DNA of 34,103 nucleotides. Origin: a virus. Each line of letters starts with the position of its first letter. The first letter of the stretch is position 1. Of this stretch, positions 1 to 30,426 are shown piece after piece. The stretch lies in the IMG/VR virus record IMGVR_UViG_3300030106_005643, positions 1-34,103 of that record; one strand, given 5' to 3'. A model generated the notes under the pieces. It did no database searches and was not told the origin of the DNA. It was given only the letters and a program-made list of their open reading frames with translations. A program made the position numbers and the translations under genes.

Positions 1-333
1 GAGGATAGAGTTAGGGTGGTAATGTTCATGGTGTATTTGGCCTTCTAAATTAAAATTTAACCAAGATTGAGTTATGTAGGGCTCAAGTTTATTATCTTTT
101 AAATCAACACCTGAAATACAAGTATAATAATCTTCAATAGCTAAGGTAAGATGTTTTTTAATATCTTTCATAGCATCCTCCTCTAAAATATAAGTATTTT
201 TAGAAGTAGAATTATATTTGTTGTTATAAACTTCACAGTTAGAAACTATGTTAAGTTCTTCTTTAGTTAAAACTCTATCTAAACGGGATCTATGAATAGA
301 GGTAGGAAAGATATCTTCAACTCTTCTTCTCAT
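1..333 (-). CDS. 2OG-Fe(II) oxygenase-like protein, TIGR02466/PF13759 type (partial, cut by left edge)
   Basis: The reading frame opens at an ATG at 333 and stays open to the window edge, giving the first 111 residues; the C-terminus lies outside. Near the edge there is a tryptophan-containing strand (QSWLNFNLEG) followed by HHEHYHPNS, with H104-x-H106-P-N-S. This is the Fe-binding strand signature of the TIGR02466 group of putative 2-oxoglutarate/Fe(II) dioxygenases. The distal His and the 2OG-binding Arg would be in the missing part. The ATG overlaps the stop of the upstream small gene as ATGA, so the two are probably translationally coupled. It is the first of eight DSBH-type oxygenase genes in the window. 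The fold family is fairly secure; substrate and activity are unknown. Confidence 0.75.
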   Translation of the reverse strand, partial: MRRRVEDIFPTSIHRSRLDRVLTKEELNIVSNCEVYNNKYNSTSKNTYILEEDAMKDIKKHLTLAIEDYYTCISGVDLKDNKLEPYITQSWLNFNLEGQIHHEHYHPNSIL

Positions 334-542
334 TTAGGCACCCTATCGCTACAAATATAGCCTACAACGCGTTGACCTTCATACAAGTGGTATGACCTTC
401 GACTAAAAAATGTTGTTCTCTTTTCGTTCATTTCTACATTCTTTTGATACCATGTATAGCAAGATTCATAAATAGTAATATTCCTAGTTTCAATTTTATT
501 ACCACCTACTAGTATCATTAAACTAATAACTAGTTCTTTCAT
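330..542 (-). CDS. Small unknown protein with hydrophobic N-terminus (70 aa)
   Basis: The ATG is at 542, and its stop overlaps the oxygenase start by 4 nt. Residues 3-13 are hydrophobic (ELVISLMILVGG), followed by a polar region with two cysteines (C28 and one near the end, YICSD). The pattern resembles the small exported cysteine-containing proteins common in marine phages, such as the one at 3711-3923, but sequence similarity between the two is weak. A signal-peptide role is an inference. Function unknown. It belongs to a tight run of small minus-strand genes. Confidence 0.55.
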   Translation of the reverse strand: MKELVISLMILVGGNKIETRNITIYESCYTWYQKNVEMNEKRTTFFSRRSYHLYEGQRVVGYICSDRVPK

Positions 543-739
543 TGTTTTAATCTATGTATAACACCTAACTTCTCTTCATTTTGAGCAATAGTATCAACAA
601 GTTTATCAGCCTCTTCAATGTGTTGTGGGTGTTCGCCAATCCCTACTGATTTAGTAAGGTATATATCTAAAGTTGCCTCAGCACTACTTATATTTGCGTG
701 ATACTTATCCTCTAATGCTTTTAATATTTTAAGTTTCAT
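539..739 (-). CDS. Small unknown protein (66 aa)
   Basis: A 66-residue acidic, probably alpha-helical protein without recognisable motif. Its stop overlaps the ATG of the downstream gene by 4 nt and its own ATG overlaps the upstream stop by 4 nt, as expected in a coupled phage operon. Composition (K/E/L/A-rich, no TM segment) suggests a soluble cytoplasmic protein. I do not recognise a family. Confidence 0.55.
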   Translation of the reverse strand: MKLKILKALEDKYHANISSAEATLDIYLTKSVGIGEHPQHIEEADKLVDTIAQNEEKLGVIHRLKQ

Positions 740-1143
740 TTCTTTTTATCCTTAAGTTGTAGTTTATATCTTATTTGGTCAATCCTATCTTTTATGCTTC
801 TTCTATCTTCTTTTGAATTAGCCGCCCTATAGTTTTTGTACTCATTTTTATACTCAATCCAATAACATTGAACTTCAGTAAAAACAATCACTTTATTTTC
901 TAAACACCACTTATATCTGCTCTTTACATGGTCGGGGTCCAAATTTGCTAAATCACAAATATATCTAAAATCTTTAGAGTCACTTAAAAACCACTCGTGA
1001 GCTTCTTTTTTATTATAAGCCTCATTCTTACCACCTAGGGTATATAAACAATCTTCAAAAGCTTGAATTACTACTGCTTGATACAACCTATGTTCAGATT
1101 TAGGAGGTGTTTTTACAATCTCTGTTGCAATATTAGTTCCCAT
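736..1143 (-). CDS. Conserved phage protein of unknown function (135 aa)
   Basis: I placed the start at the ATG at 1143 (MGTNIATEIVK). A longer reading begins at a TTG at 1173 and has a good GGAGG nine nucleotides upstream, so the extra 10 residues may be real. The protein has a helical pattern LYQAVVIQAFEDCLY, then a polar stretch and DFRYICDLANLDPDHVK, which looks like a helix-turn-helix-type segment. The C-terminus is very basic (KLQLKDKKK). It resembles small proteins found in many alphaproteobacterial and marine phages with no known role, and DNA binding is only a guess. It overlaps the upstream gene by 11 nt with the ATG start and about 40 nt with the TTG start. Confidence 0.6.
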   Translation of the reverse strand: MGTNIATEIVKTPPKSEHRLYQAVVIQAFEDCLYTLGGKNEAYNKKEAHEWFLSDSKDFRYICDLANLDPDHVKSRYKWCLENKVIVFTEVQCYWIEYKNEYKNYRAANSKEDRRSIKDRIDQIRYKLQLKDKKK

Positions 1144-1333
1144 AATCTTTAATAAGTTTGGTGAGTAGGTCAAAATAAAAAGCCTCCATCCGGGTTTGTC
1201 GGAGATCCTTACACATTTTGTAATCGTTATAGATATCGTCCATGAATTGAGTTCTTTCTAACCCATCCATTTCTGCAACATCTTGCAGGCCTGCATCATA
1301 AACTCTATCGAAAATTCCCATTTGCATAACCAT
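1133..1333 (-). CDS. Small acidic unknown protein (66 aa)
   Basis: Three ATGs lie close together at 1333, 1327 and 1321, and none has a clear Shine-Dalgarno sequence; MGIFDRVYDAGL from 1321 is equally plausible. The protein is helical and acidic. FDRVYDAGLQDVAEM is faintly like IFDKGLEKLVMIS in the next gene upstream (1375-1623), so the pair could be diverged duplicates. The evidence is too weak to assert this. No family recognised. Confidence 0.45.
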   Translation of the reverse strand: MVMQMGIFDRVYDAGLQDVAEMDGLERTQFMDDIYNDYKMCKDLRQTRMEAFYFDLLTKLIKDYGN

Positions 1334-1374
1334 GAGTTTTGGAAAGACAATGATATGGATATGTTAACCCATGG

Positions 1375-1623
1375 CTATACATTTTTGACCAAAGACAATC
1401 CTAAGTTCTTTGCAACTTTTTTTCGTCCTTGCCGCCAAGCTATGTCAGTCTTATCTAAAAACTGTAAGCTTAAGTTCCCCATGCCATAATCATTACCGCA
1501 ATAAAGCTGAAACATAATAGAAGTTATCTCGTCATAGGTTTTTTTATTAGGACTTATCATCACTAATTTTTCTAAACCTTTATCAAATATCTTATCTAAT
1601 GCTTCTTTCTTTACTGTTGCCAA
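1375..1623 (-). CDS. Unknown protein with TTG start (82 aa)
   Basis: The start is the TTG at 1623, preceded by AAGGGGATTGTT, a reasonable ribosome-binding site. The next Met is residue 22 and would remove most of the conserved-looking N-terminus. The protein is helical with a basic C-terminus (RQGRKKVAKNLGLSL). It follows a 169-nt non-coding leader with two stem-loops and three TTCGG repeats, so it probably begins its own transcription or translation unit. Family unknown. Confidence 0.5.
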   Translation of the reverse strand: MATVKKEALDKIFDKGLEKLVMISPNKKTYDEITSIMFQLYCGNDYGMGNLSLQFLDKTDIAWRQGRKKVAKNLGLSLVKNV

Positions 1624-1792
1624 AACAATCCCCTTAATTAATAATTAATAAGTTGTTCGGTTCGGTGTTCGGTAATCTAAGTAGATTGAAACCTCTACTT
1701 TTCATTAGGTTATGAGGAATACTAATCCTCAATAACAAAAGAAAAACACAATATCAAGTGTTTATTTATGTAGGAAGGACTATATGTAGGGG
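1624..1792. promoter_or_regulatory. Intergenic leader with two stem-loops and TTCGG repeats
   Basis: This gap separates two minus-strand genes. It holds a 7-bp perfect stem with an 8-nt loop (arms 1679-1685 and 1694-1700, AAGTAGA/TCTACTT). It also holds a 6-bp stem (1713-1718 and 1726-1731, TGAGGA/TCCTCA) and three TTCGG units at 1656, 1661 and 1668. Neither hairpin is followed by a proper U-run on the minus strand, so they are not convincing intrinsic terminators. They could shape the 5' leader of the 82-aa gene. No convincing promoter was found. Confidence 0.35.
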
Positions 1793-2350
1793 TTAAATCC
1801 AATCAAGTTCAGGTAAACCATTATAGTTTACATCGTAAACAAACCAACCAAAGGCCATGAGACCACCTGCTAATTTGTTTGTTCCTGGTTTTCTGAAGGG
1901 CACTCGTCTAGTAAAAATCCAAACTTTTCTAAGTTTTTTTTGGTTAAATATACACTCTCTTCTAGTTACACCTTCTAAATAAGATATCTTATTAAGGATA
2001 ACTACTTTATTTCTAGCCCTTTTCAAAGCATGAACAGTAAAAGCAGTAGATAAAATAAACGGTGGGTTTGTTATAATATTATCATAAACTTTATCGCTTT
2101 TTAAAAAGTCTTCAGGAGTATTGCCGTAACCTCTGTCAATCAAATCAGAACTATATACCTCATAGCCATTTTCAATCATAACCTTAGACATGGCACCGTC
2201 ACCGCAAGCACATTCCCAAATATTACCTTTAAATTTTTCTCTGTCTAATAATGCCTGTGTTGCTTCTTTAGGGGTAGGATAGAAATCGTCTTTTTCTCTG
2301 TCGTAGTTAACATTAAAACCTACATATCTTAATGCACTTTCTTTTTTCAT
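1793..2350 (-). CDS. SAM-dependent N6-adenine-type methyltransferase (185 aa)
   Basis: Class I methyltransferase with, in order: YPTP (residues 24-27), a SAM-binding loop ECACGDGAMS around 46-55, an acidic residue ending the next strand (SSDLID), and the catalytic NPPF at 95-98. N-P-P-F is typical of adenine or glutamine amino methylation and, in phages, of DNA adenine methylation. At 185 aa there is little room for a separate target-recognition domain. Phage proteins of this compact type are usually annotated as DNA N-6-adenine methyltransferases. The ATG overlaps the upstream stop by 1 nt. A role in masking phage DNA from host restriction is a guess. Confidence 0.75.
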   Translation of the reverse strand: MKKESALRYVGFNVNYDREKDDFYPTPKEATQALLDREKFKGNIWECACGDGAMSKVMIENGYEVYSSDLIDRGYGNTPEDFLKSDKVYDNIITNPPFILSTAFTVHALKRARNKVVILNKISYLEGVTRRECIFNQKKLRKVWIFTRRVPFRKPGTNKLAGGLMAFGWFVYDVNYNGLPELDWI

Positions 2351-4557: not shown

Positions 4558-4805
4558 ATAATTCCTAGTTCTCTTAGTTCTTGCGGTGGCCGTTGTACGG
4601 TGCACATTGGACAGTCAACTCTAATCTTTTCTGATTCGCTTGTGTCTTTCCAAACCCAGACCTCTCTTAAATCTTTACATCTTAAACATTGGTGTTCAGG
4701 TTTAGGTATATATTTTTCTTTTTCCATTTCTTCCTTAGCTTCTCTAAATATTTTTAACATAGCTCGATAAGCTCCTCCACATCTATATTCTTCTTTATCG
4801 TTCAT
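4554..4805 (-). CDS. Zinc-ribbon-like small protein (83 aa)
   Basis: Two CxxC pairs about 25 residues apart (CLRC near residue 40 and CPMC near 65) would bind one zinc ion in a zinc-ribbon fold. The N-terminal half is helical and charged (YRAMLKIFREAKEEMEKEK). The ATG at 4805 overlaps the stop of the methyltransferase by 4 nt, so the two are cotranscribed. DNA binding or partner binding with the methyltransferase is possible but speculative. The gene is convergent with the plus-strand group. Confidence 0.6.
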   Translation of the reverse strand: MNDKEEYRCGGAYRAMLKIFREAKEEMEKEKYIPKPEHQCLRCKDLREVWVWKDTSESEKIRVDCPMCTVQRPPQELRELGII

Positions 4806-5500
4806 TGCAATCTTTCTTTCGCAATATTAAAATATTTTTCGTCTAATTCAATACCAATAAACTCTCTATTTAAGTTTTTAGCTGCGACTCCAGTAGAACC
4901 AACTCCCATAGTAAAATCTAAAACAGTATCGTTTTCGTCTGTATAAGTTTTTATTAAGTATTCTAATAAAGCTACTGGTTTTTGTGTTGGGTGTAGTTTT
5001 TCTTTATCAGAATTAAACTCAATTAAATTCAATGGATAACGATAACCATTATTATCTGTAATTATTATTTCTTTAGAATTCGGATTATAAGTTTGTGCAG
5101 TTTTACCTTGTTTTATTTTATATGGTTTTCCTTTAGTAAATTGAGGATAATATTTTGCTTGTTTATTATAAAAACAAGATATTATTTCTGTATTTCTTAA
5201 AGGTTGTTTTTTTGCGTTTAAATATCCAGTTGAATATTTTTTTTTCCAAATCCAATCGTATTTAAAGTTTTTAATATTGCTCATTCTTAAAGCACTACTA
5301 AATGGCTCACTACCAAACAAAGCTATACAACCATTATCTTTAATAATTCTTTTTAACTCTTTCCACATTGACTCAAATGGAATTACACTATCCCACTTGC
5401 ATTGTGTTGTTCCATAAGGAGGGTCTGTCAGTATTAAGTCAACACTATTATTAGCTAATGTAGGTAATACTTTTAAACAATCATCGTTTATGAGTTTCAT
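4802..5500 (-). CDS. DNA methyltransferase, beta-class amino-MTase (N6-adenine or N4-cytosine), 232 aa
   Basis: The order is catalytic motif first: TDPPYG (D26-P-P-Y-G30), then the linker region, HPTQKP (170-175), and the SAM-binding motif DFTMGVGSTGVAA (about 195-207) followed by GIELDEKYF. Catalytic motif before SAM motif with HPTQKP defines the beta group of amino-methyltransferases. The usual D-P-F-x-G-S-G-T is here D-F-T-M-G-V-G-S-T, a mild variant. Length is typical for a solitary phage enzyme, and no restriction endonuclease gene is adjacent. Target sequence cannot be read from this. It likely methylates phage DNA against host restriction (inference). Confidence 0.9.
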   Translation of the reverse strand: MKLINDDCLKVLPTLANNSVDLILTDPPYGTTQCKWDSVIPFESMWKELKRIIKDNGCIALFGSEPFSSALRMSNIKNFKYDWIWKKKYSTGYLNAKKQPLRNTEIISCFYNKQAKYYPQFTKGKPYKIKQGKTAQTYNPNSKEIIITDNNGYRYPLNLIEFNSDKEKLHPTQKPVALLEYLIKTYTDENDTVLDFTMGVGSTGVAAKNLNREFIGIELDEKYFNIAKERLQ

Positions 5501-6370: not shown

Positions 6371-6826
6371 TCACTTTTGAAAAAGTAACTTACAAGCCCC
6401 AACAGCAACTAATTTCTCCTCATCGCACTTTTCTCCATAATGCCATAATGAAGATTTAAACAATATTAATTTATTTTTTTCAGGTTTTACTTTTCCGTAA
6501 TCTCTAAAAACAGTGTGTCCGCTATCCAATGTATTTAAATAAAGTATAAAAGAATAGTCTTCGGTTCTCTCATGATTATGAGTTTCTTGATAGCCTTCTT
6601 TTTCATAGCTGAGCACATGTATATGAAAAATGTCAAAAGGTTTAGGTAATATATTTTCAAATATTTTTTTAAAATGTCTACTGCCACTATAGTGTAAAAT
6701 GTTTTCGCTCTGAAAACCATTTACCGTGCATAATCCCGAGACACCTTTTTCATTATCTTTAAATTGCTTACAAACTTTAATTAATTCATTAGTCAAGTCT
6801 TCTTGAATAAAGGTTGTATAAATCAT
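6371..6826 (-). CDS. Cupin/2OG-oxygenase-like DSBH protein (151 aa)
   Basis: Residues 78-98 hold GYQETHNHERTEDYSFILYL with H83-x-H85 and E89, matching the metal-binding first cupin/DSBH motif. The second motif lies at about 114-131 (KPEKNKLILFKSSLWHYGE), with H129 as third ligand. Putative 2OG-Fe(II) oxygenases with HxH have the same layout. A positively charged residue near the C-terminus for 2OG binding is not obvious (K147 or K151 at best), so a non-2OG cupin is possible. The ATG overlaps the DNA polymerase stop by 4 nt, making it the last gene of the replication operon. Confidence 0.65.
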   Translation of the reverse strand: MIYTTFIQEDLTNELIKVCKQFKDNEKGVSGLCTVNGFQSENILHYSGSRHFKKIFENILPKPFDIFHIHVLSYEKEGYQETHNHERTEDYSFILYLNTLDSGHTVFRDYGKVKPEKNKLILFKSSLWHYGEKCDEEKLVAVGACKLLFQK

Positions 6827-8694
6827 TGTTCTTTAGCTTGGCCCCAACTCTTTCCTAAAGCCACATCAACTTTAAAAGGCACTTTAAGATTTTCTATACA
6901 GTTTTCCATTTTGTTTTTAATTAATTTAATGTCTTTATCTTCCCCAATACTAAAACAAAGTTCATCATGTATTTGTAATAAAGGCATATGACCTGCTTTG
7001 TAACAGTCTATCATTGCTTGTTTAGCTTGGTCTGCAGCTGAACCTTGAATTAATCTATTTAAGGCTTTGTAAGTAAAAGCTCTTCTTATGTTATTGCCAT
7101 AGTTTGCTTTAGCTTCATTATAGTTCATAGCTTGGTTCATACCAAAAGTAGCAGGCTCCCATTTATCAAACCTACATTTTCTACCTCTTATTGTTCTAAT
7201 AAAACCAAATTTACTTGCGGATTGAGTTACAGCACCAGCTAATTTTTTTACAAAAGGTACTCTTGAATTATATTTATTTAAAAGTATTTCTGCTTTATCT
7301 TTTGAGATACCTAGTTCTTTAGAAAGTTTTGCTTTACCCATACCATAAAATAATCCTAAATTAATTGTCTTAGCTTGTGTTCTTGATATGTCAGCCATAT
7401 CAGCTACAATTTGATGAAAGTCCGCAGACTCATCTTCATAAGCTTGAATAAATTCATCTGAGCCGTCTAACTTTTCTCCAATAGACGCAGAGTAGTGTGC
7501 CACTAATCTTGGCTCTTGTTGAGAGTAATCAAAAGAACCCCATTGTCTTCCATCCTCAGGTAAGAATAAACTTCTAATTTTGTTTCCAAATTCTTTATTT
7601 CTCGCAGGTATTTGCTGAAGGTTTGGATTAGAATAAGATAGTCTTCCTGAAACTGTACCTCCTTGGTCAGACCTAAGTTGATTTATTTCAGCGTGTATCC
7701 TACCTTTATGAACATATCTTTGTATCGAATCAATAAAGGTCGAGTGAAACTTATTTATTTCTCTTGCTTCTCTTACTAATGATGCAATTGGGTGCTCACA
7801 ATTTTGAAGCCAATTAGTTGTAAATGAAGGCTCATTAGATTTTGCGGTTCTAGGATATTCAACACCTAATCTATCAAACACTTGTGCAACGCTTCTGGCG
7901 GCCCATATATCAACATCAATAGTAGTTTCTTTTTTTATTTTTTGTAATACCTCTTTTTCTTTTGTTCTAAATTCTTTTTTCAATATTGAAGCCTTAGCCT
8001 CATCTACTCTAATACCTCGCTGTCTCATTTTAATTAATATTGGGAGAAGTTCCATTTCCATTTCCCAAACATCATTAATAGATTGTTTTTGTATTTCACC
8101 TTTAAATCTTTGCCATAACTTTAATGTGAGTGCCGCGTCCTGTTCAGCGTAGAAGCCAACATAGCCCGCAGGCATTTTCCATAAATCTTGTTTAGGGTCT
8201 ATACCCCACTCTTTAGCTTTTTCATTTAAAAATGTTTCATTTTTTATTTCACCTAAATAATCTTTTGCACAAGCGTTTAAAGAAAAACTATATCTGTTTT
8301 CATCAATTAATGCGGCAGTGGTCATAGTATCTACAATTTTACCATTAACCTCAAATCCATTTGATAAAAGCCAACCAACATCATACGAAGCGTTGTGAAA
8401 AATTTTTGTACTTGGTCTTTTTAATAAATCAACCATATAAGCAGTTGTTATTGCTAAGTCCATGTTGCCACCCGCATCATGTTGTATGGGAAAATACCAC
8501 TGCTGACCGAGTGCGGCCACAGCAAATCCTACAATACCGCCATCAAAAGTTGCCCAACCGGAACCTTTAGTTTTTAAATTAACATCCTTAGTTTCTAAAT
8601 CTATTGCTACCTCATCTGCCGCTCTTAAATCAGGATACTCTGACGGAGCTACCCAATCTGTATCATTATAAATAAAATTTAATTGATGACTCAT
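6823..8694 (-). CDS. polA: DNA polymerase I, family A, with 3'-5' exonuclease domain (623 aa)
   Basis: Replicative phage polymerase. The N-terminal DnaQ-like proofreading domain has all three motifs: D32-L-E34 (ExoI), N101-ASY-D105 (ExoII) and Y182-AEQ-D186 (ExoIII). Polymerase motifs follow: motif A DYSQQEPRL (389-397), motif B RTQAKTINLGLFYG (438-451) with K442 and Y450, and motif C QIHDEL (574-579) with D577. There is no 5'-3' exonuclease domain, as usual for phage polymerases. The residue equivalent to E. coli Phe762 is Leu446. Marine virus surveys have linked Leu762 polymerases with slower or temperate replication. It lies between two oxygenase genes with 4-nt overlaps. Confidence 0.97.
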   Translation of the reverse strand: MSHQLNFIYNDTDWVAPSEYPDLRAADEVAIDLETKDVNLKTKGSGWATFDGGIVGFAVAALGQQWYFPIQHDAGGNMDLAITTAYMVDLLKRPSTKIFHNASYDVGWLLSNGFEVNGKIVDTMTTAALIDENRYSFSLNACAKDYLGEIKNETFLNEKAKEWGIDPKQDLWKMPAGYVGFYAEQDAALTLKLWQRFKGEIQKQSINDVWEMEMELLPILIKMRQRGIRVDEAKASILKKEFRTKEKEVLQKIKKETTIDVDIWAARSVAQVFDRLGVEYPRTAKSNEPSFTTNWLQNCEHPIASLVREAREINKFHSTFIDSIQRYVHKGRIHAEINQLRSDQGGTVSGRLSYSNPNLQQIPARNKEFGNKIRSLFLPEDGRQWGSFDYSQQEPRLVAHYSASIGEKLDGSDEFIQAYEDESADFHQIVADMADISRTQAKTINLGLFYGMGKAKLSKELGISKDKAEILLNKYNSRVPFVKKLAGAVTQSASKFGFIRTIRGRKCRFDKWEPATFGMNQAMNYNEAKANYGNNIRRAFTYKALNRLIQGSAADQAKQAMIDCYKAGHMPLLQIHDELCFSIGEDKDIKLIKNKMENCIENLKVPFKVDVALGKSWGQAKEQ

Positions 8695-9320
8695 TCTTTA
8701 AGTTTACCTTTAGTAAACACATTGCCCGAAACTGTTATTCTAAAACCATCAGAGGTATAAAAAGGGTTAACAGAATGCATTTGTTGACTGGGAAAGATAA
8801 ACATCTTACCCTCATAAGATTTACCTACACCAATATTTAAAGCGTCAACCTTAGTGCCATTAAAATAAATAAAATTAAAGTTGCCATTAGACGGATTTTT
8901 TGCCATTGCGGCCGCTGGTAAAGCATATTCTTTTTCTAAATCAAAAGGGATTTGTACAAAAATTACAAATGATAATATTCCAAAATGACTATGTGGAGGA
9001 TTATACTCTCCTTTTTTCATCCAATTACACCATAATTCATCTAAATAAACAAAATTAGATTGATTGTCTTGCGGTAGTCTTTCAATAAAATCAAAATAAA
9101 TCTTCTTACAAAATTCAGAATTTTGAATTAAATTACCTATGTATTCATGTATTTCAGGAATAAATTGACTTAAATCAAATGCTTGTTCGTGAAAACCTAC
9201 TAAAAACTTATTGTGTGGTATGACTTTATGATTAACAAATTTTTTTATTCTATCAAACACTTCTTGTGGAAGAGTATGTTGTTCAGCTATTTCTATACCG
9301 TTAGTTCCGTGTATTATCAT
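8691..9320 (-). CDS. 2OG-Fe(II) oxygenase-like protein, TIGR02466 type (209 aa)
   Basis: The family signature is clear: LWCNWMKKGEYNPPHSH (residues 96-112) with H110-x-H112, an insertion typical of phage members, then MFIFPSQQMHSVNPF with distal H182, and R194 (GFRITVSGN) as probable 2-oxoglutarate-binding residue. The nearest relative in the window is the 24367-24951 gene (YNPPH-x-H, IFP, H, R all shared). It is embedded between DUF3310 and DNA polymerase genes with 4-nt overlaps, so it is expressed with the replication machinery. Its substrate is unknown. Confidence 0.85.
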   Translation of the reverse strand: MIIHGTNGIEIAEQHTLPQEVFDRIKKFVNHKVIPHNKFLVGFHEQAFDLSQFIPEIHEYIGNLIQNSEFCKKIYFDFIERLPQDNQSNFVYLDELWCNWMKKGEYNPPHSHFGILSFVIFVQIPFDLEKEYALPAAAMAKNPSNGNFNFIYFNGTKVDALNIGVGKSYEGKMFIFPSQQMHSVNPFYTSDGFRITVSGNVFTKGKLKE

Positions 9321-14078: not shown

Positions 14079-14106
14079 CTTATAGATTATTCACTTGCAA
14101 AGTCAA
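14079..14106 (-). promoter_or_regulatory. Sigma-70-like promoter for the replication operon
   Basis: On the minus strand TTGACT (14106-14101), a 16-nt spacer and TATAAG (14084-14079), each one mismatch from consensus. The -10 box ends 10 nt before the ATG at 14068, leaving a leader of only a few nucleotides. It would drive the whole 14068-6371 replication block. On the opposite strand TTGCAA (14095-14100) and TATAAA (14116-14121) could form an overlapping divergent promoter for the SNF2 gene, with a short 15-nt spacer. Confidence 0.5.
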
Positions 14107-14133
14107 ATACAAAAATATAAAACAGTGTTGGAT

Positions 14134-22620: not shown

Positions 22621-23448
22621 TTACTCAGTCTTTATCAACTCATCGGCAAAACACCCTCTATACTGGTGTTCGCCTACATGTGTAATTCGGTCAGTTATAA
22701 GAGCATAACACTTTTCTCCAAGTGCTTTCCATCTTTTACAAAAGGCAAAGTCTTCTCCTAAAAAGTTTTTTGTTTCAGGGTCAAACATAGTATCAAAAAA
22801 GTTGTAAAAATGAGGTCTATTTATATACTCTCCATTAATAACAGTCTTTTGAACAATCTCCATTTCAGGATAAGCTTTAATCATTTTTTCAATAACTTCT
22901 CTTTTGATTAACATACATCCTGTAGGAGAGTGGGTTACTTCTATAACACCATCTTTAACTCTTATATCTCTTTCGTTAGAAACTTTCATTGGATATGTAT
23001 GTAAGGCTTTGAATTTTAAATCTTTAACATTTTTAATATCACCTTTATTTAATCTATCCCAAGCTTTATCCCACATAAGTTGTTTAAGTGGATATGGGAC
23101 AGAGATTACTCCTTTATCTGCAGCTATCATTTTCATAATAGATTGATTTTGAAACTCTATATCTGAATCAATAAATAATAAGTGTGTATGATTACTCTCC
23201 ATAAAACTTGATACACAAAGATTACGACCCTGTGTTACTAAACTTGATTTCATGACTTGAAAAGAAGCCACAATATCATTTTTCATACAGAACTTTTGAA
23301 AGTCTAAACATGCTTGAAAGTAATGTATAGAGACTTCACTATGCACAGGTGTTGCTACAAAGATAGAAAATTTTTTAGGTTTTAGTTCTTGTGTTTTAAC
23401 TTTATCAGTTTTATCATTAAACCAAATTGGTTTACTTGGGTCTTGCAT
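22621..23448 (-). CDS. GT-A-fold glycosyltransferase (275 aa)
   Basis: The N-terminal Rossmann-like start is FSIFVATPVHSEVSI, followed by QGRNLCVSSFMES and the metal/sugar-nucleotide-binding DxD at LLFIDSDIEF (D94-S-D96). Later conserved-looking stretches are THSPTGCMLIKREVIEKM and NFLGEDFAFCKRW, with E-D as the usual catalytic-region acidic pair. This layout fits inverting or retaining GT-A enzymes of the Anp1/GT2-like kind. No membrane segment. The start overlaps the GT-B gene by 17 nt. Acceptor unknown: virion protein, modified DNA base or host surface are all possible. Confidence 0.8.
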   Translation of the reverse strand: MQDPSKPIWFNDKTDKVKTQELKPKKFSIFVATPVHSEVSIHYFQACLDFQKFCMKNDIVASFQVMKSSLVTQGRNLCVSSFMESNHTHLLFIDSDIEFQNQSIMKMIAADKGVISVPYPLKQLMWDKAWDRLNKGDIKNVKDLKFKALHTYPMKVSNERDIRVKDGVIEVTHSPTGCMLIKREVIEKMIKAYPEMEIVQKTVINGEYINRPHFYNFFDTMFDPETKNFLGEDFAFCKRWKALGEKCYALITDRITHVGEHQYRGCFADELIKTE

Positions 23449-24367
23449 ATGTCAGTGCTCCTTGTAAAAAAGTAGTCCATTGTTTTCCTATTATCTTCCA
23501 ATTGTAAAAATGGTTATAAAAATTTTGTTGAAATTTTAAATGATTTTGTAGTCCTACAGTATTGATTTGTTGTGGCAACTCATCAATCACACCTGCAAAC
23601 TGTTTTGCTAAATTATTCCAATTATTATCCATGGGCACATAAATAGGAAACTCTGAACAAGTTTCATAAAGCGCTCCGTTGTCCGTTGTTGTTACATACA
23701 AACCACACGCTAAAGCTTCTAGAGCCGATATACAAAAGGACTCCTCCCAAATGTTAGGATAAACAAATGCATCGTAAGTATGTAAGTTATCTAATATATA
23801 ATCATTACTTTTGTAACCAACATAATTTACATTAGGTAATTGTTTAGCTTGATTATATAAAGCTTCGTATTGTTTATCGTTCTGTTTCTCAAAATCAGAT
23901 CCATAAATTTTGGTGCTACTATATACATCTAAGGTTATGTTAGAGCTTTTAATTAATTGCATGGCACCTAAAAGAATAGATAAACCTCTCCAAGGTGTAG
24001 GGTGATAAATTAATCTAATTTTATCTTTCTTTATCATTGGATCTCTTTTTTTAATATCACCTATACCGTTTTTTATAACTGTACATTTATCACAAGGTAA
24101 ATCAAATTTTTTTCTAAATTGTTCGTAATTCCAATGACTGTTAAAAACATAATAGTCATATTTAGCAATCTCTTCTTTCTTTGAAAAAAATTCTTGTAGT
24201 TGAGGTTGGTCAGGAGCCATTTTTTGCCAAAGAATATTTATCTTTGTATTTGATAAAGGTACTCTCCCAGGCACAGATAGACAAATTTGAAACTTTTCTA
24301 ATAAGTCTACAGGCACATTTTTTTGTAAAAATTGATATTGTAATTCTGTTCCGCCTAATGGTTCCAT
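23432..24367 (-). CDS. GT-B-fold glycosyltransferase, GT4-like (311 aa)
   Basis: It begins with EPLGGTELQ, where the GGTE loop is typical of the GT4 N-terminal domain. It continues with YVFNSHWNYEQFRKKF, CTVIKNGIG, IRLIYHPTPWRGLSILLGA (nucleotide-sugar site start) and the E-x7-E signature EESFCISALEALACGLYVTT. The N-terminal domain is shorter than in most GT4 enzymes (total 311 aa), so the fold may be trimmed. It overlaps both neighbours (oxygenase upstream by 1 nt, GT-A downstream), so all three are probably made together. Confidence 0.85.
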   Translation of the reverse strand: MEPLGGTELQYQFLQKNVPVDLLEKFQICLSVPGRVPLSNTKINILWQKMAPDQPQLQEFFSKKEEIAKYDYYVFNSHWNYEQFRKKFDLPCDKCTVIKNGIGDIKKRDPMIKKDKIRLIYHPTPWRGLSILLGAMQLIKSSNITLDVYSSTKIYGSDFEKQNDKQYEALYNQAKQLPNVNYVGYKSNDYILDNLHTYDAFVYPNIWEESFCISALEALACGLYVTTTDNGALYETCSEFPIYVPMDNNWNNLAKQFAGVIDELPQQINTVGLQNHLKFQQNFYNHFYNWKIIGKQWTTFLQGALTYARPK

Positions 24368-24951
24368 TATTTTTCTTTTTTAAAGTTTGCTGCTATTGAT
24401 ACCCTTTCTACACTTGATTTAAAAGGAGAAACTACATGTCTGAGGTGTGCGGGAAATATAAAAAAATCACCTGCGACAGGCATAAAATATTTGTCAGTGA
24501 TTAAACCTTTGCCGTGTTCACCATATATAAACATAATTGATCCTGGTCCACCTTCATAACCATTTACACCTTTACTTTGTTTAGCCTCTTCATGAATTTC
24601 TTGAGGCACTGATAGATATAAAACAGAAGAGTAATCGCAACTAACATGTATATGAGGTGGATTGTAGTCACCTGCTTTCATGTAATTAACCCAAGCCTTA
24701 TCACAAACTAATCTGTTAGGTTTCTTACCATACCAAGTTTCGTGTGCTTTAATAAATCCTCCAAAATATTTTTCTATTATTTGTGTATATGCAGGAGTAT
24801 CAATATGATATTCAGTTTTAAAATGGCCTACTAATTTATGTTCAAAATTTTTCTTTTCATCTTTAATACAAAGCTCAGATAAAGATTTTAAATCTTCTTC
24901 GTTAACTTTTGTATGATAAAGAAGAGGACCCCAAAAATAAACTTTGCCCAT
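24367..24951 (-). CDS. 2OG-Fe(II) oxygenase-like protein, TIGR02466 type (194 aa)
   Basis: Signature residues: AWVNYMKAGDYNPPHIH (H100-x-H102), an insertion, DFFIFPAHLRHVVSPF (distal H172) and ERVSIAANF (R183 for 2-oxoglutarate). It shares the YNPPHxH, IFP and terminal R pattern with the 8691-9320 protein, so the two are paralogues in different modules. It starts at TAATG after the 59-aa gene and its stop touches the GT-B start, placing it in one operon with two glycosyltransferases. Hydroxylation followed by glycosylation is an attractive but untested link. Confidence 0.85.
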   Translation of the reverse strand: MGKVYFWGPLLYHTKVNEEDLKSLSELCIKDEKKNFEHKLVGHFKTEYHIDTPAYTQIIEKYFGGFIKAHETWYGKKPNRLVCDKAWVNYMKAGDYNPPHIHVSCDYSSVLYLSVPQEIHEEAKQSKGVNGYEGGPGSIMFIYGEHGKGLITDKYFMPVAGDFFIFPAHLRHVVSPFKSSVERVSIAANFKKEK

Positions 24952-25627: not shown

Positions 25628-25791
25628 TATGATAAGAAATAGTTAAAGGCATCAGCGTCATTTTTTATATCAGTCTGGTATGAAAAGTTCAACTGCTGTT
25701 GGAGTGTTCTGACAGCTTGTAAAATTTGTCTTTGATCTTCTGCTGAGTATTGTTGTTTTGGTTCAGGTAATACAATTGTAATTCTAGCCAT
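25627..25791 (-). CDS. Small conserved structural-module protein (54 aa)
   Basis: ATG at 25791 overlapping the end of the 727-aa gene by 1 nt, stop at 25627. The sequence MARITIVLPEPKQQYSAEDQ, then QILQAVRTLQQQLNFSY and NDADAFNYFLS, is a type found next to tail genes in many uncultured marine phages. It has a strand-like start, a central helix and an aromatic end. Possibly a tail accessory or chaperone; function unknown. Confidence 0.65.
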   Translation of the reverse strand: MARITIVLPEPKQQYSAEDQRQILQAVRTLQQQLNFSYQTDIKNDADAFNYFLS

Positions 25792-27974
25792 TATCTTCTC
25801 CCGTCTGGTCTTACATCAAATCTAAATGTTCCATATCTCCAGCTCTCATTTAAATTTTCATTTTCTATTTGAACCGCTGCAAGTCTTGCTCTTGCTCGTG
25901 TGTCTATCTTTGTAGTAGTTGAAGATACCGTGAAAGGACCTAGAGGACTTGAGGCTTGTGTGCTACCTTGTGGAAAGGCATTTAAAAAAATTGTTACTTT
26001 TGCATTACCAGCAATTCTCTTAAAGTCAGGCATAAACCTTTTTACACTCATTATAAATTCACCGTCTCCAGGAACTCCTTGTCTTCCGTTCAAATCAAAT
26101 TCACCTGATTTAATAAACGCGGCAATAGCTGTTTCAGTTCCGTCTCCGTTTAATTGGTTTACACCTTTTTCATGTTCATAATAAATTGTAGCTCCATTAG
26201 AAACACCATTAACCACAGGAAAGGTTGGAGTATCTGAAGCGTTAAAATCAGTAGCATATGGTTGCTCGTAAACTGTTGAGCCAACCCAAGTTGTTCTATC
26301 TAATGTGCCTGTGGTCCAAACACCCTCAGCGAAATTGTAAGTAACCACTCTGTTTATTGCATTTGAATCTGCAGTAGCGTAAAACCAATTTATCTCAGAG
26401 TATAGTTCGTTTATTCCTGCATAAACTAATTGACCTGAATTATAATTTATACCAGGATTATTGCCATTAGTTGTAAACACGAAGTCCTCAACTAGACATG
26501 GTAATGATTTTACTGTTCCATCATACACATAAAATCCACCTGTTCTCCCCATCCAATACACAGCACCATTTGCAAACACACCTGCATGCTGTCCTAACAT
26601 ACCATTATTAGAACCAACTTTTAATATTGAGAAAGTAAAAGGTGGTCCTACAAACTGTATTACATAAGAGGCAGTATCAGTTAAAACAAATATATAATCC
26701 TTTCCTTTAAACGCTCCTATGATTTGAGTTCCATCATCTAGCCTGAAAGTTCCTGCAGTGTTTGTTGAAGTGGGTTCGTAAGTGCTTAAACTTTCTTGAT
26801 TAGAAAATCTGATAAACATTTTATCCTGCGTGGTAGCTGAACCAATAGTAGTCTCTGTGCCTAAATGAAATAAATGCCTATCCCTATCTGAAACTATTGT
26901 CATTACAGATTTTGTAGGCATTCCTGTTCCAACAGTGGCCCTTGTTTGCAGTTGATTTGATGCATTAGCGTCCCAAGTAAAAGTTTTCCCATTATGGACT
27001 GTTGCAACTAATATATTTCCAAAATTATCTAATGACCAATTAGCAGGATCTATTGATACTCCTGCTGCTGTAGAGGCATCACCCCAACCAATAAATTCTG
27101 TGATGTCAGTCACAGTTGCCCCGTTATTGTGCTCTGCTGCTGTCGTTCCGTTAATACCTCTAGTAATCCCACTGATCGTGTTTGTCCCTGTGGTGTTAGT
27201 TGTGTAGCTCATGTCTTCAGAACCAATTCTTAATTTACCGTTAGTTAGAGGTAGGTTTGCTGTGCTTGTTAGAACCACTGAAGATGCACCAACAAGCATA
27301 TTACCACCATTGTTAATTGTTGTTGTGGTTTGTGCTATTGTTCGACCACCAAATAAGTAAGTGCCCCAACCATAGCCATAAGTTTGATTAAGTGGACCTA
27401 CGGGTGCATAAGGATTTACATCTAAAGTTCCATCATTTGTAACGCCTGACTTAGACTCAGTGGAAGGCATCGTAATAGTGAAAGTTGTAATTGTTGGGAC
27501 GCTTTGAACTTCGAATAGTTTGTTATCGAAATCAGTCGCGGTAAAAACTGTGTTTGCACCTGTAAATGAGCCTGCGTTTGCAAAGGTAGTTATTTCGCCT
27601 ACCTCTAAATTGTGAGCAGAGGTCGTTGTAATTGTAACTGTTGCTGATCCGTTGGTCGTTGTTATGTCTGCGCCTGTAGAGAAATTATCAGTTTCTAAGG
27701 GTGTTATATCGTAAAATGCACCCTCATAATAAATAATTAACACCTTATCAGTGCCAATGGCTGCGTATCTTTTTCCGTTTGTAGCTGACCAAACATGTTG
27801 AGCCCGGGCAGCGCCTACTAATTTATTATCTACTAATGCTTGCCAACCACCTATTTTTTCAGGTTCTCCATATCTAAATCTTACATTGTCACCATCAACC
27901 CATCTTCCTTCTGCGTCTGAAGGTGTAGATTGTTTATCAAACCCTGGTGCTATAATAACTTTTGATAAAGGCAT
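25791..27974 (-). CDS. Large tail protein, P22 gp10-like stabilisation/tail-hub type (727 aa)
   Basis: The N-terminus PLSKVIIAPGFDKQSTPSDA followed by RWVDGDNVRFRYGEPEKIGG is the signature of a widespread phage structural protein related to the P22 packaged-DNA stabilisation (gp10) family. The body is beta-rich with repeated aromatic/Gly strands (GRTGGFYVYDGTVKSLP, FAEGVWTTGTLDRTTWVGS), as in a beta-propeller. Region 105-170 is Thr/Val-rich and Ig-like, perhaps an inserted domain. A consensus extended -10 box ends 5 nt before the ATG at 27974. Confidence 0.75.
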   Translation of the reverse strand: MPLSKVIIAPGFDKQSTPSDAEGRWVDGDNVRFRYGEPEKIGGWQALVDNKLVGAARAQHVWSATNGKRYAAIGTDKVLIIYYEGAFYDITPLETDNFSTGADITTTNGSATVTITTTSAHNLEVGEITTFANAGSFTGANTVFTATDFDNKLFEVQSVPTITTFTITMPSTESKSGVTNDGTLDVNPYAPVGPLNQTYGYGWGTYLFGGRTIAQTTTTINNGGNMLVGASSVVLTSTANLPLTNGKLRIGSEDMSYTTNTTGTNTISGITRGINGTTAAEHNNGATVTDITEFIGWGDASTAAGVSIDPANWSLDNFGNILVATVHNGKTFTWDANASNQLQTRATVGTGMPTKSVMTIVSDRDRHLFHLGTETTIGSATTQDKMFIRFSNQESLSTYEPTSTNTAGTFRLDDGTQIIGAFKGKDYIFVLTDTASYVIQFVGPPFTFSILKVGSNNGMLGQHAGVFANGAVYWMGRTGGFYVYDGTVKSLPCLVEDFVFTTNGNNPGINYNSGQLVYAGINELYSEINWFYATADSNAINRVVTYNFAEGVWTTGTLDRTTWVGSTVYEQPYATDFNASDTPTFPVVNGVSNGATIYYEHEKGVNQLNGDGTETAIAAFIKSGEFDLNGRQGVPGDGEFIMSVKRFMPDFKRIAGNAKVTIFLNAFPQGSTQASSPLGPFTVSSTTTKIDTRARARLAAVQIENENLNESWRYGTFRFDVRPDGRR

Positions 27975-28001: not shown

Positions 28002-28643
28002 TTATGTAGTCTTGGGTACACCAAGTAAAGGGCGACCATCATTAGATTGAGAGCCATATTGACCGTATGCATCAGCATAATGTAAAAAAACTTGTGTGCA
28101 TATATCACCAGTAAACTTTTCTCTCCAATGTTCTAAATCAACACCATTGTAAACTAACATGTCCCCTTGCTCTAAATTAATAGATATTCCTTTATTATCA
28201 CTAGTAACCGTAGCTCCTTGTTTTCCAGGTTGCCCAACATTTTTGTTTGGCTCTAAATAAATTGGCCACACATCTCCACCTAAATTTAAGGTAGTGGATA
28301 TTTGACAACTTACTCTGTCTTTATGTCTTTCGAGCACAGAGCCTTTTTTATATATTCTAGTGTAAGAATAATTCATTACTAGTTTCATTTCCGTTTCTCT
28401 TTCCATTAATGGATGTAATTTTTTAAGTAATGTTTCCATAGCGAAGTCAGAATAATGAGAATACATATTAGGCACTTGATCGTCTTTCCAAGTTCCTAAC
28501 CAGCCAACCTCAGGGCTTATGCCTTTGCTGTACATATATTTAACAGCATCACATTTTAGATTTAAGTAGTTAAATAAAAATTCTGCCATCTCATTAGAAA
28601 TAGCACCTTTAATAACTTTATATCTATTCTTTTGAAAACTCAT
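28002..28643 (-). CDS. 2OG-Fe(II) oxygenase-like protein (213 aa)
   Basis: Core motif YSYTRIYKKGSVLERHKDRV with H107-x-D109, then CQISTTLNLGGDVWPIYLEP, INLEQGDMLVYNGVDLEHW with distal H172, and QVFLHYADA. H-x-D...H is the standard Fe(II) triad. The 2OG-binding Arg is not in its usual place; the FLHYAD strand has none. The protein type is common in cyanophages and pelagiphages. It has a close but degenerate relative three genes upstream (29342-29875). Overlap with the next gene is 4 nt. Confidence 0.85.
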   Translation of the reverse strand: MSFQKNRYKVIKGAISNEMAEFLFNYLNLKCDAVKYMYSKGISPEVGWLGTWKDDQVPNMYSHYSDFAMETLLKKLHPLMERETEMKLVMNYSYTRIYKKGSVLERHKDRVSCQISTTLNLGGDVWPIYLEPNKNVGQPGKQGATVTSDNKGISINLEQGDMLVYNGVDLEHWREKFTGDICTQVFLHYADAYGQYGSQSNDGRPLLGVPKTT

Positions 28644-29146
28644 CTAATAAACCCGTTAATAGTTAATCTACTATCGTTAATATCATTACCATGATGTCCA
28701 TAAGCACTATGTTTATAGGTGCTATCAAATAAGATTAATCGATTTTGCACAAATTTAAAATCAGTGATTGTATTGTTGTCTTTGCAAAATAGTTTCGTGC
28801 CACTTTTAAGATTTGTCTCACTTATATAAATAATTAAAGAATAAATGCAAGCATCTGTATGTATAAAATCGTCTTTTTCATCGCTCTGTGTTCTTGAGTG
28901 TACATATAAATGAATTTTTTTATCCTCAATGTTAAGTTTATTTAATGTAAAATATTTAACACAAAAATATTTTAATAAAGGGTTACTATGTTCCAGTTCT
29001 AAACTTCTCTCTCCTGGCCATACTGATTTGTTAATATCGTTTTGAACTTCAGGGTGATCTGAATTTTTAAATAATTTTATTTTTTTTGCTTCATTATAAA
29101 TTACCTGAGGTAATTCAAAAAAATTGTCAATTTGTTGAGCGATCAT
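28640..29146 (-). CDS. 2OG-Fe(II) oxygenase-like protein, DUF6445-like (168 aa)
   Basis: Triad residues H96-T-D98 (DDFIHTDACIYSLIIYI), a Gly-Thr-x-Leu-Phe strand (SGTKLFCKDNN), NRLILFDSTYKHSAYG with distal H146, and R160 (DSRLTINGF) for 2-oxoglutarate. All four expected residues are present. The pattern recalls DUF6445, phage and bacterial proteins predicted to be oxygenases. It is sandwiched between two other small genes with 4-nt overlaps in the oxygenase operon. Substrate unknown. Confidence 0.75.
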   Translation of the reverse strand: MIAQQIDNFFELPQVIYNEAKKIKLFKNSDHPEVQNDINKSVWPGERSLELEHSNPLLKYFCVKYFTLNKLNIEDKKIHLYVHSRTQSDEKDDFIHTDACIYSLIIYISETNLKSGTKLFCKDNNTITDFKFVQNRLILFDSTYKHSAYGHHGNDINDSRLTINGFIR

Positions 29147-29352
29147 TTTAATTCTTGCTCATCGTCAGATTTTAAATGTTGTCTAGTGCTAGGATTGTAT
29201 TGATCTAATTCTACATACATCCTAATTAAATGATTACCCATATGTTTCATTCCATCAGCAGAAATCTTAGTGCAACCTTTAAATAAAATTCTAAGTCTTT
29301 CTCTCCATGAAAAACTTATTTCGCAATGATTTTTTTGATTTTTAATAATCAC
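29143..29352 (-). CDS. Small unknown protein within the oxygenase operon (69 aa)
   Basis: N-terminal strand and basic helix (HCEISFSWRERLRILFKG), then a helix (DGMKHMGNHLIRMYVELDQY) and a charged tail. Short proteins with 'SFxWRERxRIxFxG' starts occur in marine phages and cyanobacteria without known function. It overlaps both neighbours by short stretches, so it is translated with the oxygenases and could be an accessory partner. That is speculative. Confidence 0.55.
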   Translation of the reverse strand: MIIKNQKNHCEISFSWRERLRILFKGCTKISADGMKHMGNHLIRMYVELDQYNPSTRQHLKSDDEQELK

Positions 29353-29875
29353 CTACTACTCCATATGTTTCTTTTTTATCTTTTAGATAAAATTTGTTAG
29401 CTCCTTTAGCATCTACATAGTGTAGATTATACTCAAAGTAATAATCACCTTCAAATTCTTTTCTATAAAAATGCTCTTTATAATCATCAAATAATAAAGC
29501 GTGAGAGGGCTCTAAGTCAAATTTTTGTCCTCTTAAATATAATGGCCATGGTTTACCAACCATATCAATTAAACCAATTACAGTATATTCACAAGCAGGT
29601 GATCTTTCATGATATTCATACTCAGCACCTAAAGTATGAACTTTAAGTTCTGAATAAGAACAATATAATTGTTTACCTAAAGTTTTTTCAATACTTGATT
29701 TTTTACTAATCATTAAACTATCTGTGAGTGAGTCAGCATAAAGTCTTGTGTCTTTCGTGGAGCTTTTAGGGTCAAAAAATTTTAAATTATTTCTATGTCG
29801 AATTTTAGTATAATGAGTAAATAATTCTAACTCGTGGTTAGTTAAAAAATTAGGTATTTTTACTAAAGTCCCCAT
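29342..29875 (-). CDS. Degenerate 2OG-oxygenase-like paralogue, metal motif H-E-R (177 aa)
   Basis: Aligning by eye with the 28002 protein: YSELKVHTLGAEYEYHERS against YSYTRIYKKGSVLERHKDR, VGKPWPLYLRG against GGDVWPIYLEP, and DDYKEHFYRKEF against GVDLEHWREKF, ending YNLHYVDA against FLHYADA. The distal His (H135) is kept, but the H-x-D motif reads H89-E90-R91, so the second Fe ligand is missing from its usual position. It may be inactive, use E90, or serve as a regulatory or structural subunit. It overlaps the P4H-like gene by 13 nt. Confidence 0.7.
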   Translation of the reverse strand: MGTLVKIPNFLTNHELELFTHYTKIRHRNNLKFFDPKSSTKDTRLYADSLTDSLMISKKSSIEKTLGKQLYCSYSELKVHTLGAEYEYHERSPACEYTVIGLIDMVGKPWPLYLRGQKFDLEPSHALLFDDYKEHFYRKEFEGDYYFEYNLHYVDAKGANKFYLKDKKETYGVVGDY

Positions 29876-30426
29876 GCTACAATACTATATCTAGTACCCT
29901 CCTCAACAGGCGTTACCGTATGTGGATATAAAAAATTACTTGGCCATACAATTAATCTAGATGATTTAACATTAACAACTTTTTGTTCTTCGGTTAGTGG
30001 ATCTCTAAAACATAAATTTCCACCTTTATAATCATTATTAAGTAATAATATAAAACTCAAAGTTCTTGGGTGTTTATAATAATGGTCTGTATGAAATTTG
30101 TAAAAACCGCCTTTTTCATACTTTAAAGCTTGTATGTCCTTAATAGAGTAAATAAAAGATTCATTTGTATTGAAGTATTTCATATACTCAAGGTGTGCGT
30201 TATAAAAGATTTTATTAAGTAAATTATACCAGTGAACATTAGTTAAACTTGATGACCATCGATATAAATTAAGATTAAATGTTCTTCTAACTTCTAAATT
30301 AACTTGCTCCTCTCCAACTGTAGCTTGATTAAAATCACTTACGCTTAAAACTTTAACTAGTCTTCCTATTGTATCTATAGGTAAAACATCATCTATTGTT
30401 AGTATATATTTATCTAAACTTGTCAT
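29863..30426 (-). CDS. Prolyl-4-hydroxylase-type 2OG-Fe(II) oxygenase (187 aa)
   Basis: Complete active-site set: H112-T-D114 (GGFYKFHTDHYY), then TLSFILLLNNDYKGGNLCFRD (the classic 'YLN..Y.GG.L.F' strand), SSRLIVWPSNFLYPHTVTPV with H169, and R179 (GTRYSIVAWGL). This is the P4Hc domain, which hydroxylates prolyl or other residues using 2-oxoglutarate, O2 and Fe(II). Length is that of a stand-alone catalytic domain. Operon overlaps: 4 nt with the DUF6065-like gene and 13 nt with the degenerate paralogue. Confidence 0.9.
   Translation of the reverse strand: MTSLDKYILTIDDVLPIDTIGRLVKVLSVSDFNQATVGEEQVNLEVRRTFNLNLYRWSSSLTNVHWYNLLNKIFYNAHLEYMKYFNTNESFIYSIKDIQALKYEKGGFYKFHTDHYYKHPRTLSFILLLNNDYKGGNLCFRDPLTEEQKVVNVKSSRLIVWPSNFLYPHTVTPVEEGTRYSIVAWGL

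Follow-up and report, generated by a model that had tools for sequence, protein, structure and literature searches.

Multiple 2-oxoglutarate (2OG) oxygenases are already known from phages. Passages of Wittmers et al. 2022 (PMC9599517) describe phages of the HTVC023P type as widespread and abundant in the sea and report eight non-orthologous 2OG oxygenase genes across this lineage, often near each other, as auxiliary metabolic genes (AMGs); one or two ferrochelatases are presented there as partners, with a 2OG oxygenase adjoining every 'ferrochelatase'. A table in Sullivan et al. 2010 (PMC3037559) also lists hypothetical proteins with a 'ferrochetalase domain', and sections of a 2024 time series from the Western English Channel (PMC11561400) treat phrog61 and phrog2954 as two seasonally enriched, separate AMGs. 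Here we analyze a 34,103-nucleotide stretch of DNA from a virus (IMG/VR record IMGVR_UViG_3300030106_005643; hereafter the window), which encodes eight proteins of the double-stranded beta-helix (DSBH) class, D1 to D8. Four of the genes, D5–D8, are an accessory array between a probable tail adhesin and the tail nozzle, and among related contigs the content of the array tracks the adhesin, not the nozzle. The anatomy of the array and its evolutionary link to the adhesin appear to be new.

The DNA polymerase of the window is 61.6% identical over 99% to that of Pelagibacter phage HTVC023P and 52–53% identical to those of 023Pt_psg01 and HTVC027P, and the overall order array, nozzle, glycosyltransferase, and further on helicase, primase, helicase and polymerase is common to the window and HTVC023P. 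Polymerase identity and gene order mark the window as part of the genome of an HTVC023P-type pelagiphage. The genomes of the three named relatives are 57.6–60.9 kb long, and the window therefore represents little over half a genome.

Position of the array and co-variation with the adhesin

On the minus strand of the window, the genes follow in the order adhesin, 161-aa protein, DUF6065 protein, D8, D7, 69-aa protein, D6, D5 and nozzle (Table 1), and between DUF6065 and D5 every pair of neighbours shares 4 to 13 bases. The overlapping genes from D8 to D5 support the dedicated operon claimed in an earlier reading by a model that saw only the letters (the original prediction). The adhesin candidate has no Pfam match and is named for its position, composition and likeness to relatives. 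The 161-aa protein matches no Pfam family at a meaningful E-value; that it serves as a chaperone is a guess.

Six relative loci read gene by gene mostly repeat this plan, with a Gly-rich adhesin, a 132–193-aa protein, the array, and then nozzle or neck. A Gly-rich PF21722 protein adjoins the array in contigs G005, L198 and L003 and in the phages Mosig and HTVC008M. The latter two are T4-like pelagiphages, HTVC008M with five DSBH genes in a row and Mosig with six plus a heme oxygenase and a bilin reductase; in both, the array has the PF21722 protein near one end and neck genes at the opposite end. Cyanophage S-RIM44 carries two tryptophan halogenases by annotation (one of them Pfam-checked) and, before the array, a distant DUF6065 relative (L130:4004-4711; 25% identical, without a Pfam match); its DSBH genes are followed by neck genes.

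Pairwise similarities were compared by partial rank correlation among 52 contigs that contain an array, a Gly-rich adhesin and a nozzle, with near-duplicates removed. With shared ancestry controlled via the nozzle only, and with some nozzle and adhesin open reading frames (ORFs) truncated at contig ends, array similarity correlates with adhesin similarity at 0.42 (0 of 400 permutations), and at 0.41 when the Gly-rich stretches are masked (0 of 400; 630 of 1326 pairs usable). The correlation of array with nozzle after removal of the adhesin is −0.05 (317 of 400 permutations). Plain linkage should act on both sides, because the array sits between adhesin and nozzle. A first run with 51 contigs gave partial correlations of 0.44 for the adhesin (0 of 500) and 0.01 for the nozzle (206 of 500); its 'adhesin' was any long gene, in contig L243 really a halogenase. 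Because the 52-contig run demands a Gly-rich protein, it does not cover arrays that follow an adhesin of another type, as in HTVC027P. The L243 gene is a tryptophan halogenase (L243:4766-6181; PF04820, 1.4e-88) within a DSBH array, on a Maricaulis-binned contig with phage tail genes.

The eight genes and the ferrochelatase name

All eight DSBH ORFs of the original prediction are present on the minus strand with exactly the predicted ends, D1 running off the window edge, and each protein matches a DSBH/2OG-type PHROGs family. The predicted sub-types are borne out by motifs read by eye from the translations: H-x-H in D1–D4 (D1 shows HYH, the remainder being missing), H-x-D in D5, D6 and D8, and H-E-R in D7. 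An arginine follows the distal histidine, where a 2OG-binding residue is expected, in D3, D4, D6 and D8, again by eye. The family searches proposed with the prediction gave a mixed outcome, in that D2, D3, D4 and D8 pass the Pfam gathering score (PF13640 or PF13759) and the other four do not. The TIGR02466 features claimed for four proteins are weak, with 15.4 bits for D1, 29.5 for D3 and 47.6 for D4 against a cut-off of 62.5, and D2 is absent from the TIGR02466 matches at E ≤ 1.

Among the individual matches, D2 reaches PF13640 at 5e-6 (27.8 bits, cut-off 27), and D8 matches NF003974 at 9.3e-13, below that family's cut-off, and the Sbal_3634 and PiuC chains of the PDB at E 0.03–0.09. Weak phmmer matches link D4 to 3bvc (E 0.007) and 2rg4 (E 0.06), both with HIH. 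D6 gave no tblastn match in the annotated phage collection. In the PKHD-type subfamily, HxD, the distal H and R are invariant in 17 of 17 representatives. With the DSBH fold taken from a predicted structure for D5 and from sequence families for the other seven, seven of the eight proteins are probably Fe(II)/2OG oxygenases. Judging from these family matches, two PHROG names given to DSBH proteins appear questionable, namely 'DNA endonuclease V' (phrog_274) and 'minor coat protein' (phrog_1644).

Table 1. Features of the window, with positions, strand and supporting matches
Feature	Position	Strand	Description	Match or remark
D1	1..333	-	N-terminal part of PF13759/TIGR02466-like (H-x-H) DSBH protein, cut by window edge	phrog_81 4.9e-11
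Methyltransferase-like gene	1793..2350		DNA methyltransferase-like	phrog_799
Methyltransferase-like gene	4802..5500		DNA methyltransferase-like	phrog_67
D2	6371..6826	-	DSBH protein (HNH...H)	phrog_274 2.8e-13, also phrog_81; 4-base overlap with DNA polymerase
D3	8691..9320	-	PF13759 DSBH protein (HSH...H...R)	PF13759 3.2e-10; phrog_81 7.9e-25; 4-base overlap with DNA polymerase start
SNF2-type helicase	14095..15567	+		longest plus-strand ORF of the window
Glycosyltransferases	22621..24367	-	two glycosyltransferase-like genes	PF03452 (under cut-off), PF00534; adjoin D4
D4	24367..24951	-	PF13759 DSBH protein (HIH...H...R)	PF13759 7.5e-16; phrog_81 1.1e-35; one-base overlap with glycosyltransferase gene
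Tail nozzle	25791..27974	-	virion structural protein, here named tail nozzle	phrog_3287 1.3e-77; downstream border of array
D5	28002..28643	-	prolyl-hydroxylase-like DSBH oxygenase (HKD...H), so-called phage ferrochelatase	phrog_2954 4.9e-45; AlphaFold model
D6	28640..29146	-	predicted DSBH oxygenase (HTD...H...R)	phrog_1644 1.6e-12; PF13640 7.2e-5, below cut-off
69-aa protein	29143..29352	-	inside array	67-aa protein at same place in contig L153 similar by eye
D7	29342..29875	-	D5 paralog without metal triad (HER; distal H to F)	phrog_2954 4.7e-17
D8	29863..30426	-	predicted PKHD/prolyl-hydroxylase-type DSBH oxygenase (HTD...H...R)	phrog_61 1.8e-31; PF13640 8.2e-17
DUF6065 protein	30423..31157	-	phrog_7084, predicted dUTPase-like fold	PF19541 1.7e-6; 4-base overlap with D8
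161-aa protein	31177..31662	-	between adhesin and array	place of 132–165-aa proteins in relatives
Adhesin	31665..32891	-	probable tail fibre/adhesin, Gly-rich C-terminus	best 100-aa stretch 25% Gly; proposed substrate

The last helicase of HTVC023P, like the SNF2-type helicase of the window, lies on the strand opposite to its neighbours.

The structure-prediction check, carried out for D5 only, gave a DSBH fold of the prolyl-hydroxylase type. The AlphaFold (AF2) model (predicted local distance difference test, pLDDT, 82.5; predicted template modeling score, pTM, 0.83) is a single domain whose residues 1–209 align to 2OG oxygenases. The first rows returned by Foldseek are the P. putida EF-Tu prolyl-4-hydroxylase (4iw3/4j25; E 9.4e-8), to which VIA aligns the model with Z 15.5 and a root-mean-square deviation (rmsd) of 2.6 over 160 residues (4j25); PHD2 is among the best structural rows, and the PDB rows shown are 2OG-oxygenase-type structures. 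Both the P. putida enzyme and PHD2 act on proteins. Of 164 D5-family ORFs (not de-duplicated, with some overlapping loci), 159 keep the complete triad of H107, D109 and H172; the five exceptions comprise two truncated ORFs, two occurrences of one D7 sequence and the D7 copy of contig L153.

Ferrochelatases have a two-domain alpha/beta chelatase fold. The label is attached to phrog_2954, the family of D5 and D7, in PHROGs and in two papers, and among our family searches it is carried by the PHROG annotation only; no ferrochelatase family of Pfam or NCBIfam appeared for D5 or D7 at E ≤ 1, a range in which HMMER filters drop most matches above 0.1. The D5 model is prolyl-hydroxylase-like, and the label therefore looks wrong for the D5 family, a verdict on the fold that derives from the positive match of D5 and not from absence from a listing. 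We rejected D5 and D7 as ferrochelatases on the 2OG-oxygenase fold of D5 together with the missing profile match. A D5-family sequence profile run against the PDB found only ferritin chains (E 0.2–1), taken as chance. On this evidence phrog61 and phrog2954 both look like oxygenase families, the latter in need of a corrected name, and the ferrochelatase label in published ecology (PMC9599517, PMC11561400) needs checking and correction, independent of what the array does at the tail tip.

D7 can be compared with its counterpart in L153, a sister contig collinear with the array region of the window (identities of 67% for the adhesin, 63% for DUF6065, 66% for D8, 47% for D7 and 68% for D5) and otherwise syntenic with it, in which D6 is missing. 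D7 is full length in both, and the L153 copy also lacks the triad, with replacing residues different from those of the window. The triad being lost in D7 and in its ortholog, D7 looks like a retained pseudo-enzyme, probably a pseudo-oxygenase. The simplest reading would be a kept non-catalytic partner, while D7 may alternatively be in slow decay.

Possible substrates and array composition

From gene identity, the D5 fold, triad conservation, gene order and the adhesin–array co-variation, all of which were computed, we infer tentatively, and at somewhat less than an even chance, that the array enzymes hydroxylate side chains of tail-tip proteins post-translationally. D8, D7, D6 and D5, with the dUTPase-fold DUF6065 protein, would form a translationally coupled cassette between the probable adhesin and the nozzle, expressed late, and the enzymes would act, no later than assembly, on the adhesin or on tail-tip proteins produced together with it. 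If the adhesin binds the receptor, enzyme swapping would change the chemistry of the tip along with its sequence. D7, without the usual iron triad, would pair with D5 as a non-catalytic partner; D4, which adjoins the glycosyltransferases, may prime a residue for glycosylation; and D2 and D3, beside the polymerase, would be separate acquisitions.

Cellular relatives of D5 provide some further context. A scan of GTDB genomes found 24 loci, nine of which carry adhesin or nozzle labels and look like phage contigs. Neighbours were examined for 13 loci of the cellular collection (L244–L256), two of which (L246, L254) yielded no gene listing. Three of the 13 (two Mucilaginibacter, one Methylomonas) combine an asparagine synthase with one or two additional oxygenases; one of the three also has a SET protein, and another a weak HprK-like match. 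In our reading, these three resemble loci for ribosomally synthesized and post-translationally modified peptides. Two are Methylobacter loci, and in the Pfam-checked one (L250:5934-11278, Candidatus Methylobacter oryzae) the neighbourhood of the D5 relative includes three Tail Collar proteins, an Asp_Arg_Hydrox hydroxylase (Asp/Asn), a sulfotransferase, a DUF6916 protein and an acetyltransferase. In two Polaromonas loci the D5 relative is accompanied by a kinase-like protein and another oxygenase. L248 and L253 have none of these neighbour types, and L244 and L245 are phage-like by eye. These cellular contexts, few in number, fit peptide or protein substrates.

Several observations weigh against the tail tip as the target. 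A weaker co-variation with the array is also seen for the gene upstream of the adhesin (0.28, 903 pairs, 0 of 400), and adhesin and array may travel as one cassette, in which case a break near the nozzle gives the same result. The array-negative contigs G007 and G008 keep the Gly-rich protein, starting 0.9 and 1.9 kb from the nozzle start, and the adhesin therefore does not need the array; HTVC027P conversely has an array and no Gly-rich protein, so that a strict requirement is ruled out in both directions. In HTVC027P and HTVC008M the array and the tail genes next to it are on different strands and therefore do not form one operon. The D5 relative of cyanophage ACG-2014f stands alone beside NAD synthetase, and in S-T4 the oxygenases come after a helicase, with tail genes about 3 kb away. 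The adhesin is the nearest labelled gene within 2.5 kb in only 50 of 102 arrays with a 2.5 kb 5' flank, and the nozzle is nearest on the 3' side in 44 of 97; chromosomal pairs and T4-like phages are part of these counts, as are loci in which the adhesin is masked by DUF6065. D5 has Gln where Arg usually stands about ten residues past the distal histidine, and 2OG binding by D5 is therefore unproven; a conserved Arg is found in its family two residues past that histidine. VIA ties SnoN, PHD2, AviO1 and HygX for D5, and these include small-molecule enzymes (SnoN, which comes first, and HygX).

The strongest single contrary fact is the DUF6065 protein, whose predicted fold is that of a nucleotide enzyme. 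All 50 structural rows shown for its model (pLDDT 74.5) are dUTPases (Z 10.8, rmsd 2.4 over 119 for the comparison with dUTPase), the best Foldseek E being only 6.9e-4, which by predicted fold places it in the dUTPase superfamily; a G-I-V-D-T-D stretch was compared by eye with the dUTPase motif. A literature search found no paper naming DUF6065. The oxygenases might accordingly act on bases or nucleotides, with DUF6065 handling a nucleotide and D2 and D3 flanking the DNA polymerase. The 4-base overlaps on each side of D3–polymerase–D2 (6371-9320) agree with this, as do thymidine hypermodification genes reported for some related clades in parts of PMC9599517, and weak, sub-cut-off Pfam matches of D5 to PF13532 (0.032) and of D8 to PF09859 (0.041), the latter described as acting on damaged DNA. 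Yet most DSBH genes found sit in tail-module arrays, and at E ≤ 1 Pfam returned no TET/JBP family for the eight. A DSBH gene abuts the polymerase in 2 of 71 loci on the 5' side and 4 of 68 on the 3' side with enough flank, and among the 80 polymerase loci only L029, with the same polymerase, has one on both sides. D2 and D3 thus look like rare single insertions and were rejected as a conserved polymerase module. We consider action on nucleotides or DNA quite unlikely.

The glycosyltransferase genes that abut D4, and a DSBH pair that abuts such a gene in contig G003, would also suit hydroxylation of the infected cell's surface, at its sugars, lipids or peptides, for example to block superinfection. 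The fold matches of D5 include the sugar- and antibiotic-tailoring 2OG enzymes HygX, AviO1 and EvdO1. The array, however, sits by the adhesin, not the glycosyltransferase genes, and follows the adhesin in co-variation, and we regard modification of the cell surface as unlikely, if worth keeping in mind.

The number of DSBH genes differs widely among relatives. It was counted from any match of at least 25 bits to our own DSBH profiles (19 bits in the polymerase-neighbour count); the profiles of D1–D4 and D8 drifted together during iteration, and best-profile subfamily labels were therefore not used. The 11 polymerase-selected contigs, picked for length (24.8–60 kb) from 80 polymerase loci, have 0, 0, 0, 1, 1, 1, 3, 3, 6, 6 and 8 DSBH genes, where low counts may be undercounts because most of these contigs are fragments, including two of the three without any (25 and 43 kb); G009 was scanned over 40.0 of 42.8 kb and G003 over 60,000 of 60,015 bases, and the also eligible L075 (29.6 kb) and L069 (24.9 kb) were left out. 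The eight records of at least 50 kb range from 0 to 6: HTVC023P 4, HTVC027P 3, 023Pt_psg01 4, HTVC033P 3 (own profiles over 50 of 53 kb, PHROG family searches over the whole genome), G003 6, G008 0, G014 6 and G015 6. HTVC033P was included via its D5 homolog and is not among the 40 polymerase matches listed, and G014 and G015 were selected for holding DUF6065. PHROG family searches matched phrog_81 in 13, phrog_2954 in 10, phrog_61 in 12 and phrog_274 in 11 of 18 records, and in 14 control genomes phrog_2954 in 0 and phrog_61 in three. Eight DSBH genes stand in a row in L198 (an 11.3-kb contig) and in G005 (36.8 kb; 7 by PHROG family searches). L003 has ten in 10.2 kb, with a DUF6817 protein (HD-like by eye; L003:7214-7726) inside the array and a heme oxygenase (L003:9333-9911) at its end, which could supply iron to the array enzymes. 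Runs of at least two DSBH genes number 164 (redundant across overlapping loci), nine of them with mixed strands.

Eight genes per 34 kb put the window at the upper end of its lineage's range without making it unique, and the original prediction is right only in part in calling this number exceptional. Dense arrays are a common yet accessory trait, so that the counter-scenario of equally dense sets in all related phages applies by half: arrays are common, and yet 3 of the 11 polymerase-selected contigs have none. The multi-step pathway also predicted finds no support as an ordered series, given a number of 0–10 without fixed composition, one pseudo-enzyme, and D2 and D3 as rare insertions; parallel, independently gained modifications therefore fit better. 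The same variation in number, the presence or absence of D6 between sister contigs and the lost triad of D7 could reflect neutral or selfish accumulation, the gap between adhesin and nozzle being a tolerant insertion site for oxygenase genes without a joint task. This appears very unlikely, as triads are intact in the great majority of D5-family ORFs, the genes retained at this place mostly belong to a single fold class, and the ratios of nonsynonymous to synonymous differences against L153 (pN/pS; 0.32 for D5, 0.39 for D8 and 0.60 for D7, with pS of 0.55–0.66 near saturation) indicate constraint.

Published proposals, in passages of PMC3037559 and in the 'ferrochelatase' partner view found in parts of PMC9599517, would assign such enzymes to general auxiliary metabolism, where consumption of 2OG or iron handling steers the nitrogen or energy state of the host. 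The heme oxygenases that end the arrays of L003 and Mosig could release iron. However, the 'ferrochelatase' itself looks like a DSBH oxygenase, and burning one metabolite needs no ten divergent enzymes; a metabolic role is in our view improbable.

Hydroxylation of tail-tip proteins could extend beyond this lineage. It is conceivable, though on balance doubtful, that unrelated marine phage families share an oxidative-tailoring cassette, with up to ten oxygenases and at times a tryptophan halogenase, a heme oxygenase or an HD-like protein, which diversifies the receptor-binding tip and offers, alongside changes in sequence, a chemical route to host-range variation. If an exchangeable set of enzymes does oxidize the attachment tips of HTVC023P-type phages after translation, this would be a new kind of diversification of phage receptor binding and would explain what a common group of genes in marine viromes, so far without an explanation, is for.

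Comparison with known systems

No earlier paper that connects 2OG oxygenases of phages with the modification of tail fibres was recognized by title in the literature, which does not establish that none exists. Among solved structures, the P. putida prolyl-4-hydroxylase with EF-Tu (4iw3/4j25) supplies the top Foldseek rows for D5 at only about 10% identity. The TIGR02466/PF13759 chains 3bvc and 2rg4, 'uncharacterized' in the PDB, share HIH, the distal H and Arg with D4, which scores below the TIGR02466 cut-off. In the table of Sullivan et al. 2010 (PMC3037559), cyanomyovirus genomes have at most five 2OG-Fe(II) genes each, and nine, described as scattered, are given for S-SZBM1 in passages of PMC9146016; these phages differ from the window in their much larger genomes and in the roles proposed in those passages, DNA repair or 2OG draw-down. 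The Western English Channel series (PMC11561400) uses, in the sections concerned, exactly the D8-type (phrog61) and D5-type (phrog2954) families, the latter taken as ferrochelatase. The AMGs of Wittmers et al. 2022 (PMC9599517) are from the same lineage and of the same gene kinds as those of the window. In the passages of that paper describing them, the ferrochelatase is a heme enzyme and the oxygenases lie nearby but not adjacent to each other, whereas in the lineage of the window the partner itself appears to be an oxygenase, and the arrays are contiguous and co-vary with the adhesin.

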